Shown piece after piece: positions 33,085 to 37,536 of a DNA stretch of 37,536 nt. Position 1 is the stretch's first letter; each line of letters begins with the position of its first letter. The DNA lies in assembly GCA_963170165.1 (NCBI GenBank), contig CAUJGQ010000138.1, positions 159,690 to 197,225 of the forward strand, given 5' to 3'. A program made the position numbers and the translations under genes. Source of the stretch: Chloroflexota bacterium. GTDB taxonomy: Bacteria > Chloroflexota > Dehalococcoidia > CAUJGQ01. The notes under the pieces were generated by a model. That model was given only the letters and a program-made list of their open reading frames with translations, did not search any database and was not told where the DNA came from.

Positions 33085-33266
33085 GAGGGCAGTCGCTAGG
33101 ACGGCCCGCGTACCGTCCGGAAGGACGGGGAAGCGTGGGGGGCCCCGCCGGTGGGAGGGATGCCCAGCGACGCGCGTAACTCACCCGGCGTAGGAGTCAA
33201 GCTACCGGACCCCGCAGCAACGGCGCAGATCGATCAGCAGCACACCGGACAGCGCTCGGCGGCGGT

Positions 33267-33433
33267 GCGGGGTAGCCGGCGCCGGCCACAAGGCGGCAGG
33301 TTATTCGCGCGTCCGCGTGGCGTGGTCGATTCGTTCGTGCACGACCGTGGCCAGCACGACTGCCGCCGCGCCGCCGTCATCTTCCTCCGGCCGGAAGGCA
33401 GCGGTGGTGACGTCGGCGAAGAGCGCGCCGATG
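33267..33433 (-). repeat. Direct repeat, copy 1 (matches 35840-36006)
   Basis: A 167-base stretch that is nearly identical to 35840-36006 with no indels. It encodes the last 44 residues or so and the stop of the secreted protein at 35874, plus 34 bases after its stop. At 33433-33435 it joins RHS core sequence abruptly. This is a recombination junction. Confidence 0.8.
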
Positions 33434-33579
33434 ACGTGCGCCGCCAGCGGCGTCGAGGGACAGTCCCCCGCCGGGTCCGGGCTAAGGAACCGGCCGGTGG
33501 CCGGGTCGTACAGGCGCGCCCGCAGGTAGAGCAGCCCGCTCTCCGCGTCGCGGCGGTTGCCGGTGTCGTCAAACGGCAT
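33301..33579 (-). pseudogene. RHS core remnant fused in frame to the tail of a secreted protein
   Basis: A 92-codon frame from ATG 33579 begins in the RHS core (MPFDDTGNRRDAESGLLYL, RARLYDPATGRFLSPDP), then leaves it after PLAAH and continues in frame as the C-terminal tail of the 35874-36551 protein (ADVTTAAFRPEEDDGG, then HERIDHATRTRE). It lacks the RHS cleavage motif and any tip, so it cannot act as an RHS toxin. The same frame runs upstream through the IS630 remnant. It is a fossil chimera made by recombination. Confidence 0.75.
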
Positions 33580-33596
33580 ACCTGTCCCCGTCTGCG
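33435..33596 (-). repeat. RHS core copy C
   Basis: Collinear with 34717-34878 (offset 1282) without indels. It encodes the segment from QTGT-MPFD to SPDP of the RHS core. Its outer ends are the junctions to the secreted-protein tail and to the IS630 remnant. Confidence 0.8.
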
Positions 33597-33876: not shown

Positions 33877-34104
33877 TCAGTAACGTCTCAGCAGAAGTAG
33901 TACTACAGCATTGGCAATAGACCATATCACTACTGAGATTACGAAACGCAGTGCGACATCTGATGAGCCAACGGAAGATAGTATTACACTTGCGGGCATG
34001 ATGTCTGTTCCAGTTACGTGGAAGACAACTATCTCGATCAGCGAAATGAATAGTGAAAGACTTAGCGATATGATGATAGTCTGTTTGAAAGTTATCGGCT
34101 TCAT
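33877..34104 (-). CDS. Candidate membrane immunity protein, two TM helices
   Basis: 75 residues from ATG 34104. An in-frame GTG at 34134, two bases after the TAG of the RHS module (34136-34138), is an alternative start that adds 10 polar residues. Neither start has a clear ribosome site. Hydrophobic segments at about 8-32 (TIIISLSLSLFISLIEIVV) and 52-72 predict two transmembrane helices. It has no known family. The local composition is much richer in AT than the core genome. A small gene placed directly behind a polymorphic toxin tip usually encodes its immunity protein, and a membrane protein fits a membrane-active tip. Confidence 0.6.
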   Translation of the reverse strand: MKPITFKQTIIISLSLSLFISLIEIVVFHVTGTDIMPASVILSSVGSSDVALRFVISVVIWSIANAVVLLLLRRY

Positions 34105-34135: not shown

Positions 34136-35056
34136 CTAGTGGAAACCTGCTCCACCACCTCCGCCTCCGCTCGGTGGGCCAGGTGCATCGTTGCCAGATT
34201 CTAGTCTGCTGCATACTGCATCACATCCATTTCGGCCTCCGTAAGCAGATAATGCGCCGCAGATAACGTCAACCGTTCCTGCACAAGCCAGTCCAGGGAT
34301 TGTCCATGCTAGACTGAGTATCGGGCCGATGCAAACAGCCCAACCTATATCGACACATGTGTGCGATGCGCCCAACCCGTACACAATCCCGCAGAGTTGT
34401 CTGCAACCGATCTTCGGGAACCAACTCCAGGGTGAGTTGTGCGTCCATACGAACTGGTCATAGTTCGGGATGTATTTCGCGCCAAGCCCGAGATCCATGA
34501 TGGGGTGGATGCACAGCCCCGGGTCATTCGCCGAGCAAATGCCGTCGTCCAGCGCTGGCTGCGTGTCGACATCTGGGACGGGCGGCTTGCCAATTCCTTG
34601 ATAGGGCTGCGCACCCGGATAGTCGCCGGGCATGGTGCTGGGCGCCGGCCCGTCCCACGCCGAGAGTCCGAGCGGGTCGGTGTAGCGTGCCGGGTTGGCG
34701 AGGCCGTAGAGGTACGCGTGCGCCGTCAGCGGGGTTGACGGGCAGTCCCTCGCCGGGTCCGGGCTGAGAAACCGGCCGGTGGCCGGGTCGTACAGCCGTG
34801 CCCGCAGGTAGAGCAGCCCGCTCTCCGCGTCGCGGCGGTTGCCGGTGTAGTCAAACGGCATGCTCGTGCCGGTCTGTGTGTGGATGTTGCCATACGCGTC
34901 GTACTCCCGGCTGCCGATGGCGCTGCCTGTGCTGCTCAGCACCAGCCGTTCGCTCCCCTGGCGGTCGGCCGCCACCACCCAGCGGGTACTGGGTGACCAG
35001 CTCCCCCGCCCACACGTACTCGCTGGCCCCGTCTCAATCACACTACTGCTCGCCAT
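34136..35056 (-). CDS. Orphan RHS module with cysteine-patterned toxin tip
   Basis: The frame from ATG 35056 gives 306 residues, but only those after about residue 24 (RWVVAADRQGSERLVL) are RHS. It has the RHS core (REYDAYGN, YDPATGRFLSPDP), the self-cleavage motif PARYTDPLGL and a pre-tip segment shared with the copy at the window edge. A hydrophobic tip (residues 217-282) has eight Cys spaced 3-11-7-15-7-11-3, with TIPGLACAGTVDVIC resembling halocin C8-like domains. A Gly tail ends it. The large N-terminal RHS shell is missing, and one extra base near 34984-34986 breaks the frame to the upstream EYVWAGELVTQY. It is a displaced module that would become active by recombination. Confidence 0.75.
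   Translation of the reverse strand: MASSSVIETGPASTCGRGSWSPSTRWVVAADRQGSERLVLSSTGSAIGSREYDAYGNIHTQTGTSMPFDYTGNRRDAESGLLYLRARLYDPATGRFLSPDPARDCPSTPLTAHAYLYGLANPARYTDPLGLSAWDGPAPSTMPGDYPGAQPYQGIGKPPVPDVDTQPALDDGICSANDPGLCIHPIMDLGLGAKYIPNYDQFVWTHNSPWSWFPKIGCRQLCGIVYGLGASHTCVDIGWAVCIGPILSLAWTIPGLACAGTVDVICGALSAYGGRNGCDAVCSRLESGNDAPGPPSGGGGGGAGFH
34416..34798 (-). repeat. RHS pre-tip/core homology, copy B (matches 37154-37536)
   Basis: About 383 bases collinear with 37154-37536 (offset 2738) without indels, covering RHS core, PARYTDPLGL and the pre-tip segment up to WSWFPK. Similarity stops abruptly at the first tip cysteine. The pattern is typical of polymorphic toxins that swap tips at a conserved border. 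Confidence 0.8.
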
Positions 35057-35357
35057 CTCGGGTCGACCTAATATGGGGGAGCAACCAGAACAGCGCTACC
35101 GCAATACCGGCCGCACCCATAACAATGGTGATAATCGCATCCCAGACTGTGAATCCAGATTCTCGCAGAGCGCGGCCAACTACGACGGTACCAGTGAACC
35201 CTAGGGCTATTCCTAGGAATGTCGTTAGCTGTCTCCTCTGGGAATGGCCAGCCCAGTGCTGTAGTCTGCCCTTTACGGGCCTTGTGTCCCGAAACAGCGT
35301 AATGAGGATGATCATCGCGACAGGAACCATGAATGCGAAGATGCCGGTGACCATCAT
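35043..35357 (-). CDS. Small membrane protein, candidate displaced immunity gene
   Basis: 104 residues from ATG 35357 (the next codon is also ATG), with GGGA about 9 bases upstream; a longer frame to 35399 is possible. Three hydrophobic segments (MVTGIFAFMVPVAMIILITL, LTTFLGIALGFTGTVVV, DAIITIVMGAAGIAVALFWL) predict three transmembrane helices. No family is recognised. Its stop overlaps the start of the RHS module that follows on the same strand, so RHS sequence begins exactly where this gene ends. That placement suggests an immunity gene left behind when its own tip was lost or replaced. Confidence 0.55.
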   Translation of the reverse strand: MMVTGIFAFMVPVAMIILITLFRDTRPVKGRLQHWAGHSQRRQLTTFLGIALGFTGTVVVGRALRESGFTVWDAIITIVMGAAGIAVALFWLLPHIRSTRDGEQ

Positions 35358-35399
35358 ATAGTTTCCCGTTTGGGCGAACGCCGCTTCCGTCCGAGACAC

Positions 35400-35839
35400 C
35401 CAGGTATACGAGCTATCGGCAGATTAGCGCCCCTTCGCAGACTTGCTTGGCGGATGGTGAGGGAAGAGCAGCCACTGACCTCAGCATAGATTACTGACCA
35501 TAGCCGCAGCGGCAGAAACCGGCCGTGGTGGAGATCTCTGCCTTGGCGGTCTTCGATGTGCATGCCGGCAGGCGCGTCCTCACCCGCGGTGCGGCCCTCG
35601 CCCGCCGGGCGCAGCTTGCCCCCGCGCCCTAAACCGGCATCCGAACAGGGGCCTGCACAGTCTGGCGAGGGGTACGGGCGCAGCTCGCGCGTATGGGATG
35701 CACCACCTGAGAGAGCACACCTGTCTCCGCTCGGGCGCGCCGTGCGCTGCGGGTGTGCGGGGGGCGAGCAACGGGCGCGCGCGCGGGCAGCCCCCCTGTG
35801 GTGCGGGTATGCCTCCGAGGGCACACACCCGGCGGTCGT
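35400..35839. other. Gene-free stretch between RHS-linked genes
   Basis: I see no convincing gene here. The stretch holds a short alternating CG run (about 35774-35787) and GC-rich simple sequence. A long open frame on the minus strand (35354-36115) is a shadow of the flanking genes and has no recognisable content. Confidence 0.5.
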
Positions 35840-36006
35840 GCGGGGTAACCGGCGCCGGCCGGAAGGCGGCTGGTTATTCGCGCGTCCGCGTGGCGTGGTC
35901 GATTCGTTCGTGCACGACCGTGGCCAGCGCCACTGCCGCCGCGCCGCCGTCATCTTCCTCCGGCCGGAAGGCAGCGGTGGTGACGTCGGCATAGAGCGCG
36001 CCGATG
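35840..36006 (-). repeat. Direct repeat, copy 2 (matches 33267-33433)
   Basis: This is the original context of the repeat: the end of the secreted-protein gene and 34 bases downstream. The copy at 33267 is fused to an RHS core. The two copies are 2,573 bases apart in the same orientation, so recombination between them could delete the RHS modules in between. Confidence 0.8.
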
Positions 36007-36551
36007 TGGAACCGGTACCAGTAATGCACCACGTCACGCCCGTCTTCGCGGCCGGTGAGGCGCATGAGCGCCCCCTCATCCCCGAGTGTGGGGGCATCGA
36101 GTGGCTCTGCCGCAACGTAGTAGCTGGCGCCGTACGTCATCACCAGGTCGGGCATGCCGGCCACAGCGGCCGCCGCGCCGGCGGTATCTTGATAGCGGTC
36201 GATGGAGGCGGCGACGCCACTGGGATACCCATCGGCTGCCGGCACGCGCAGAAAGAGGATGTGATAGCCGTCTATCCGGCCCCAGGCATCGAACTGCTGC
36301 TGAACCGCCGCCGGGTCATCGGAGCGAGCAGCGAGGCTGGCGTTGTCCAGCACCTCCCCGCCATCGCTGATGAAGCCAGGGAGCAGATCGGTCTCGGTAA
36401 GTGAAAGCTGCCAGAGGGCATCACCTTCGCTTGGTTGGGCTGCCATTCCTCTTGTCAGGCCACTGCCTATCAGCACAAGCATCACACCGATGAGCGTGAC
36501 TGTCGTAAATACGAACCGTGTAGCCTGCGTGCGATTATGAAAGCGCAGCAT
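35874..36551 (-). CDS. Secreted or membrane-anchored protein, unknown function
   Basis: 225 residues from ATG 36551, with GGGAGG about 5 bases upstream; the frame extends to 36572 without support. An N-terminal signal or anchor (FVFTTVTLIGVMLVLIGSGL) is followed by a domain with LPGFISDGGEVLDN, QQQFDAWGRIDGYHILF and LGDEGALMRLTGREDG. The pattern resembles extracytoplasmic proteins of Chloroflexota with no named function. It ends in ADVTTAAFRPEEDDGG and a terminal HERIDHATRTRE, also found fused to RHS at 33301. It stands between two RHS modules and may be part of the RHS locus. Confidence 0.7.
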   Translation of the reverse strand: MLRFHNRTQATRFVFTTVTLIGVMLVLIGSGLTRGMAAQPSEGDALWQLSLTETDLLPGFISDGGEVLDNASLAARSDDPAAVQQQFDAWGRIDGYHILFLRVPAADGYPSGVAASIDRYQDTAGAAAAVAGMPDLVMTYGASYYVAAEPLDAPTLGDEGALMRLTGREDGRDVVHYWYRFHIGALYADVTTAAFRPEEDDGGAAAVALATVVHERIDHATRTRE

Positions 36552-36669
36552 TGAACCTCCCGCTCTTGTCACGCTGGGCGAACAAGGCTGATGGTGTTAT
36601 CATTTCAATAGATGTCGATCCGAGGCGGCTGCTATTTTCGACGTCATCCACCGTTTCCTTTTCTTATTT

Positions 36670-36873
36670 GTGTCGATAGCCTTTATTGTGCTGTCCATTA
36701 TTTGGGTTGCTTCCTTGTATTTTGGGTTGTACGGTGGCCTGAGTCTTGGGAACCTCTCCGACGATTGGCGCCGGTGGTGGGTGCAGCTCTTCCCGTTGCT
36801 TACGTTTATCGTGTTATTGCTAGCTGTATTCTTGTTCTCCGCGATTAGATCTGGATTTATGCCTTCATTCTGA
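36670..36873 (+). CDS. Possible two-helix membrane protein opposite to the RHS array
   Basis: Plus-strand frame with a GTG at 36670 and no ribosome site. The open frame continues upstream as SEAAAIFDVIHRFLFLF without ATG, GTG or TTG, so a one-base indel after an ATG at 36612 is possible. The protein has two hydrophobic helices (VLSIIWVASLYFGLYGG and LLTFIVLLLAVFLFSAI) around a polar WRRWW loop. The minus-strand frame through the same bases is Lys/Asn-rich and less protein-like. It lies in the AT-rich stretch right after an RHS tip, so it could be a broken immunity gene. Confidence 0.35.
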   Translation: MSIAFIVLSIIWVASLYFGLYGGLSLGNLSDDWRRWWVQLFPLLTFIVLLLAVFLFSAIRSGFMPSF

Positions 36874-36939: not shown

Positions 36940-37536
36940 CTAGTGCAATAGTCTTTGCATGGTATACGCATTGCATTGGCGCAGATGCGTCCCCCAGTAA
37001 AACCCGCAAGTTGCAGCGCATGCGGCAGCCGCAATTGGGTTTGCCGTTATAGTTCCACAGACAATGGCGCAGGAAGCGTTCAATGGTACACCTGCCACAA
37101 AACATAGGCCGCTGGAGCAGACAGCATTGCAGATAGTCTTACAGCCGGCTTTAGGAATCCAACTCCAGGGCGAATAGCGCGTCCATACGAACTGGTCGTA
37201 GTTGTGAATGTATTTCGCGCCGAGCCTAAGATCCATGATGGTTTGGAGGCACAGCCCCGGTTCATTCGCCGAGCAAATGCCGTCGTCAAGCGCTGGCTGC
37301 GTGTCGATGTCGGGGGCGGGTGGCTTGCCAACACCGAGGTAGGGCTGTGCGCCCGGGTAGTCGCCCGGCGTGGTGCTGGGCGCCGGCCCGTCCCACGCCG
37401 AGAGTCCGAGCGGGTCGGTGTAGCGCGCGGGGTTGGCTAGGCCGTACAGGTAGGCATGCGCGCTCAGCGGCGTCGAGGGACAGTCCCCCGCCGGGTCCGG
37501 GCTGAGAAACCGGCCCGTGGCCGGGTCGTACAGCCG
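36940..37536 (-). CDS. RHS protein C-terminus with cysteine-rich tip, 5' part outside the window
   Basis: 198 visible residues, open to the window edge. They begin in the RHS core (RLYDPATGRFLSPDP), pass the cleavage motif PARYTDPLGL and a pre-tip segment shared with the module at 34136 (PALDDGICSAN, GAKYIHNYDQFVWT), then enter a different tip. The tip has nine Cys spaced 3-3-4-10-3-12-3-10, with several CxxxC pairs such as CAIVC and CAATC, and hydrophobic Ala/Ile/Val stretches. CxxxC pairs place Cys on one helix face, suggesting disulfide-linked helices. The frame ends at TAG 36940. The downstream sequence is AT-rich. If the N-terminal shell is intact outside the window, this could be the functional RHS gene. 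Confidence 0.75.
   Translation of the reverse strand, partial: RLYDPATGRFLSPDPAGDCPSTPLSAHAYLYGLANPARYTDPLGLSAWDGPAPSTTPGDYPGAQPYLGVGKPPAPDIDTQPALDDGICSANEPGLCLQTIMDLRLGAKYIHNYDQFVWTRYSPWSWIPKAGCKTICNAVCSSGLCFVAGVPLNASCAIVCGTITANPIAAAACAATCGFYWGTHLRQCNAYTMQRLLH
37154..37536 (-). repeat. RHS pre-tip/core homology, copy A
   Basis: Collinear with 34416-34798. The two copies differ by scattered substitutions, so they are not a very recent duplication. Confidence 0.8.

Follow-up and report, generated by a model that had tools for sequence, protein, structure and literature searches.

Near the end of the 37,536-nucleotide stretch of Chloroflexota DNA analysed here (the window), a gene of 306 amino acids (AA) encodes an eight-cysteine domain, which we call tip 1. 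Our best explanation of the whole, held with moderate confidence and drawn from comparison of sequences, is that tip 1 is distantly related to halocin C8, a peptide antibiotic of salt-loving archaea, and provides an RHS cassette with its variable toxin tip. Judged by its sequence, the gene itself is a displaced, orphan 3′ cassette of an RHS gene and not an intact RHS effector.

The features of the locus are collected in Table 1. The match of the 306-AA protein to TIGR03696 (Rhs_assc_core, residues 52-131) scores 74.3 bits against a cut-off of 32.5, and the RHS-associated core thus identified lies ahead of a variable C-terminal tip, as in RHS polymorphic toxins. The two RHS modules of the window share a direct repeat (34404-34703 and 37142-37441) that is 86% identical at the DNA level and ends at the first cysteine codon of tip 1, beyond which the modules differ; at the protein level they are 71% identical over 178 AA. 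Two cysteines of the shared pre-tip (174 and 182) lie outside the set of eight and are present in the 36940-37536 module too. A shared pre-tip followed by divergent tips is the usual organisation of polymorphic toxins. The GC content is 67.7% in the RHS part, falls to 55.9% in tip 1 and reaches 42.1% in the gene of the candidate immunity protein. Both C-terminal modules and one RHS remnant are encoded by the minus strand, where a contig of 197 kb comes to its end.

Table 1. Coordinates of the RHS modules and neighbouring features, numbered along the window.
Feature	Position	Strand	Basis
Recombination scar: RHS core remnant fused to a 3′-end copy of the 35874-36572 gene	33301..33579	-	Repeats D2, D3, D4
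Candidate immunity gene, 75 AA, two predicted TM helices	33877..34104	-	Hydropathy; position
Orphan RHS C-terminal cassette, bearing tip 1	34136..35056	-	306-AA ORF; TIGR03696 match
Tip 1, halocin C8-like eight-cysteine domain, residues 218-282	34211..34405	-	Cysteine layout and profile match
Pre-tip linker, residues 132-217, common to the second module	34406..34663	-	Direct repeat
RHS-associated core, residues 52-131 of the 306-AA ORF	34664..34903	-	TIGR03696 Rhs_assc_core
Break of the reading frame within the RHS portion of the cassette	34970..35030	-	Three-frame translation
105-AA protein, three predicted TM helices, directly before the orphan cassette	35043..35360	-	Predicted helices
Second RHS C-terminal module, incomplete because the contig ends	36940..37536	-	RHS module repeat
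Tip 2, nine cysteines, core gaps 10-3-12-3-10	37143-36940	-	Cysteine layout

The cysteines of tip 1 (residues 218, 222, 234, 242, 258, 266, 278 and 282; window 34405-34211) are separated by 3-11-7-15-7-11-3 residues, and the exact mirror that the original prediction had read in them is confirmed. If the end cysteines are fixed and the other six positioned randomly, the probability of a perfect mirror is approximately 6.6e-5, a post hoc figure, and shuffling the order of the seven gaps restores it in about 1% of cases; being post hoc and attained at this rate by shuffled gaps, the mirror alone was dropped as proof.

The features originally ascribed to halocin C8, a 7-13-7 block and an IP..GLSC..G..V...C segment, are correct, as the archaeal sequence L034 carries ITIPVAGLSCLGFVEIVC. 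The NCBIfam model of this family (TIGR04449, halocin_C8_dom) matches residues 221-284 of the 306-AA protein at 15.6 bits with an E-value of 0.025 in a search of 18,950 models, covering nearly the full length of the model (3-65 out of 69 positions). Neither this score nor the 18.4 bits obtained in six-frame translation attains the curated cut-off, which is 24 bits, for which reason tip 1 is not filed as a member of TIGR04449. Nevertheless, no other six-frame match among 197 genomes of the class scores as highly, the next one standing at 16.1 bits, and no match under an E-value of 0.01 was found in 301 genomes of the phylum. By BLASTP, tip 1 and a Haloferax halocin C8-like protein are identical at 21 of 58 positions (36%; 35.8 bits). 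We also gathered archaeal halocin-family domains from plasmids and genomes and built our own profile; the plasmid search was queried with the mature halocin C8 sequence, with which L034 agrees. This profile scores tip 1 at 14.2 bits, a value matched by none of 5000 plain shuffles and by two of 5000 in which the cysteines were held fixed, and the mean Smith–Waterman score over 24 halocin domains lies approximately 5.5 standard deviations above cysteine-fixed shuffles, none of 2000 reaching it. As the match beats shuffles that retain the cysteines, spacing alone is not the explanation. The hhalign result against the halocin profile is weak, with a probability of about 2%, and in a control of 200 plain shuffles one outscored tip 1 and another was nearly equal; it should be noted that cysteine- and alanine-rich queries yield inflated weak matches. 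The two AlphaFold models consist of helices throughout but are of low confidence (pLDDT 51-56), a sequence search of the PDB found no solved relative, and tip 1 was not recognised by Pfam or PHROGs. The halocin C8 likeness put forward originally is thus upheld by the sub-threshold TIGR04449 match, the shuffle controls, the 36% identity and the cysteine frameworks described below, while the shortfall from 24 bits, the hhalign result and the low confidence of the models keep it from being a significant family assignment; from these comparisons we regard it as real yet distant, and tip 1 as a probable remote relative.

Halocin C8 itself (L034) has gaps of 2-7-3-7-13-7-8-8-5, and frameworks elsewhere in the archaeal family read 2-7-11-13-15-7-5 (L039), 2-7-11-3-12-3-11-7-5 (L035), 2-7-7-3-3-12-3-3-7-7-5 (L041) and 2-7-7-3-19-3-8-7-5 (L044). 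The ten-cysteine set is incomplete in tip 1, which fits loop by loop, never more than three residues apart, the eight-cysteine derivative L042 (2-11-7-13-7-14-5); both lack the same rung, and their loops of 11, 7 and 7 residues are identical in length between the two. Unlike tip 1, L042 is archaeal, scores above the TIGR04449 cut-off and has no RHS link in the stretch read. The reading, taken from alignment A2, that the halocin cysteines missing from tip 1 are C3 and C10 was dropped, as the L042 framework favours C3 and C8. With tip 1 excluded, the frameworks of the family are mirror-like with a combined permutation p of approximately 4e-8, related frameworks being non-independent, and as this spacing recurs across divergent frameworks we infer nested disulfides in a helical hairpin. 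Symmetric cysteine pairs are absent from two of the sequences, C4/C7 from L039 and C3/C8 from L042. Such losses are what nested pairing predicts and suggest, at the level of sequence, a nested disulfide order for halocin C8; L040, which lacks a single cysteine, and L051, which lacks C4 and C6, break strict pair loss, so that the rule has exceptions. The mirror is most simply read as a helical hairpin held together by nested disulfides, which in tip 1 would have one rung fewer. Its four disulfides would join residues 242-258, 234-266, 222-278 and 218-282 and staple a single antiparallel hairpin, corresponding to halocin C8 minus the C3-C8 rung (halocin numbering).

The core of tip 2 resembles the 11-3-12-3-11 core of the archaeal L035. 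By sequence, tip 2 matches best the halocin-like L045, also archaeal, at a score reached by two of 2000 cysteine-fixed shuffles, and its match to the halocin profile is weak; three N-terminal cysteines have no mirror partner, and hence tip 2 may be truncated. The candidate immunity gene starts 31 nt past the stop codon of tip 1, and its product, for which no family match was found, is likely the immunity protein for tip 1, a role suggested by position. The 105-AA protein is probably an orphan immunity protein, its role being likewise inferred. An ORF of 67 AA with two predicted TM helices (36670-36873, plus strand) runs convergent to tip 2 and is possibly an immunity gene on the opposite strand. 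The repeats of the recombination scar, D2 (94%), D3 (90%) and D4, involve the regions 33257-33594 and 35830-36006. The gene at 35874-36572 encodes a secreted protein, and its second 3′-end copy is 94% identical.

Three-frame translation of the cassette shows its RHS homology as GASEYVWAGELVTQY in one frame and then WVVAADRQGSERLV in the next. Both pieces occur in the same order in the RHS loci of relatives (L064, L080, L067 and L061), where the upstream piece scores weakly. The reading frame is unbroken between the RHS core and the last of the eight cysteines, whose symmetry is kept. In the whole 4.4-Mb genome (reported to be 97% complete) YD repeats gave no TIGR01643 match and no contractile sheath was found; the YD-repeat shell with a delivery domain that marks RHS polymorphic toxins was thus not found in this genome. 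The contig stops where the window stops, and an RHS carrier may have been left unassembled. The placement of the eight-cysteine domain at the tip of an RHS protein is true for the 3′ part only, since the RHS homology begins in another frame and the whole is an orphan ORF. Further, the proposal that a bacteriocin-like peptide is here joined to an RHS delivery system was not sustained, as a frame break interrupts this orphan module and neither YD repeats nor a contractile sheath were found in the genome. In bee gut bacteria, displaced 3′ ends of RHS genes have been described in arrays that include immunity genes, and such orphan cassettes are reservoirs that can rejoin a secretion domain (PMC8125069).

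We propose that the module is probably a displaced and silent reservoir cassette in its present position and would become active once recombined onto a full-length RHS gene. Tip 1 is cysteine-rich and hydrophobic, and the stapled hairpin would act on the envelope or membrane of competitor cells, with the two-helix membrane protein at 33877-34104 protecting the producer. The maturation of halocin C8 starts from a secreted protein of 283 AA, which also yields its immunity protein (PMC11509114). Nothing resembling this precursor was recognised here, so protection would have to rely on the separate 75-AA gene.

A GTDB pattern scan headed by tip 1 found no homologue outside this genome, and a halocin-headed scan found haloarchaea only. 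Homologues of tip 1 were found neither in the sampled Chloroflexota genomes nor in phages, plasmids and viral contigs, and hence no intermediate bridges tip 1 to the halocins. On reading, the weak matches of tip 1 proved to be due to chance, whether in genomes of the class (L009-L013), elsewhere in the phylum (L053-L060) or on the plasmids H1 and H2; the same holds for the matches that tip 2 gave in further genomes of this phylum (L102-L104 and L109). The halocin-like framework is absent from the readable RHS tips of relatives (among L061-L088).

Alpha-hairpin peptides with mirrored cysteine spacing are found in other kingdoms, and tip 1 could be an unrelated hydrophobic, cysteine-rich RHS tip that came to resemble halocin C8 because a disulfide-stapled hairpin is subject to the same geometric constraint. 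The sub-threshold family match, the weak hhalign result and the missing intermediates agree with such convergence; however, we consider it rather unlikely, in view of the advantage of tip 1 over shuffles with every cysteine kept in place, the three loop lengths shared with L042 and the resemblance of the second tip at the locus to another framework of the same halocin family. Tip 1 may still be membrane-acting if it arose by convergence. Mere chance, by which a hydrophobic, alanine- and glycine-rich sequence from outside the family would carry fortuitously symmetric cysteines, is disfavoured and in our view very improbable. The symmetry was indeed spotted post hoc, and such compositions commonly give weak matches, but so few shuffles (0/5000 plain, 2/5000 cysteine-fixed) reach the profile score, tip 1 scores highest among 197 genomes, and symmetry is a property of the family.

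Compatible with a halocin C8-related tip is the notion that the locus is decaying debris, a broken RHS remnant whose tip 1 is no longer expressed or functional. The frame break in the RHS part, the adjacent scar that fuses an RHS core to another gene and the want of an RHS shell in the genome all point this way. Yet we find it doubtful, because the frame from the core through the eight cysteines and their symmetry have been preserved, an intact membrane-protein gene follows directly, and elsewhere orphan cassettes act as reservoirs from which a secretion domain can acquire a tip again (PMC8125069).

Tip 1 and halocin C8 (TIGR04449) have in common the seven-residue gaps flanking a turn of 13-15 residues, a core of the IPGLxC-x-G-x-V-xx-xC type, and a hydrophobic domain of 65-75 residues at the C-terminus of a larger protein. 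They differ in that tip 1 is two cysteines short, falls below the curated cut-off, is bacterial and resides on an RHS cassette, whereas halocin C8 comes from a secreted precursor with its own immunity domain. Halocin_C8_dom has been reported almost exclusively as a C-terminal extension of PAAR proteins (PMC8651086), which, like our cassette, would carry it as the C-terminal cargo of a delivery protein, so that the idea of injecting a halocin as cargo has a precedent; here, by contrast, the context is an orphan RHS cassette in a genome where no contractile sheath was found. A literature search on halocin together with Rhs returned PMC8651086 and an unrelated paper only. With the orphan RHS tips of PMC8125069 the locus shares a short RHS core, a new tip and a small downstream gene in arrayed form, but the tip is a cysteine ladder rather than one of the commonly reported enzymatic tips. 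New features are the variant with eight cysteines, its occurrence on an RHS cassette and the mirror rule.

Tentatively, halocin C8-type peptides could represent a branch of a wider, cross-domain family of helical-hairpin toxins with nested disulfides, a family that would also supply bacterial RHS systems with exchangeable tips; two or more frameworks, among them 7-13/15-7 and 3-12-3, would then be alternative alleles of a single locus. If tip 1 is indeed a halocin C8 relative, a class of peptide antibiotics known from secreted archaeal precursors would double as swappable RHS cargo in a bacterium, beyond the haloarchaea. For halocin C8, to which no related PDB structure was found, the mirror rule also predicts an order of disulfides that can be tested directly. 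Among the archaeal relatives, a halocin C8-like gene on plasmid pNRC200 of Halobacterium salinarum NRC-1 (L018) is shorter than the others; its reading frame departs past the sixth cysteine of the domain, and an ISH30-type transposase gene is annotated approximately 230 nt downstream.
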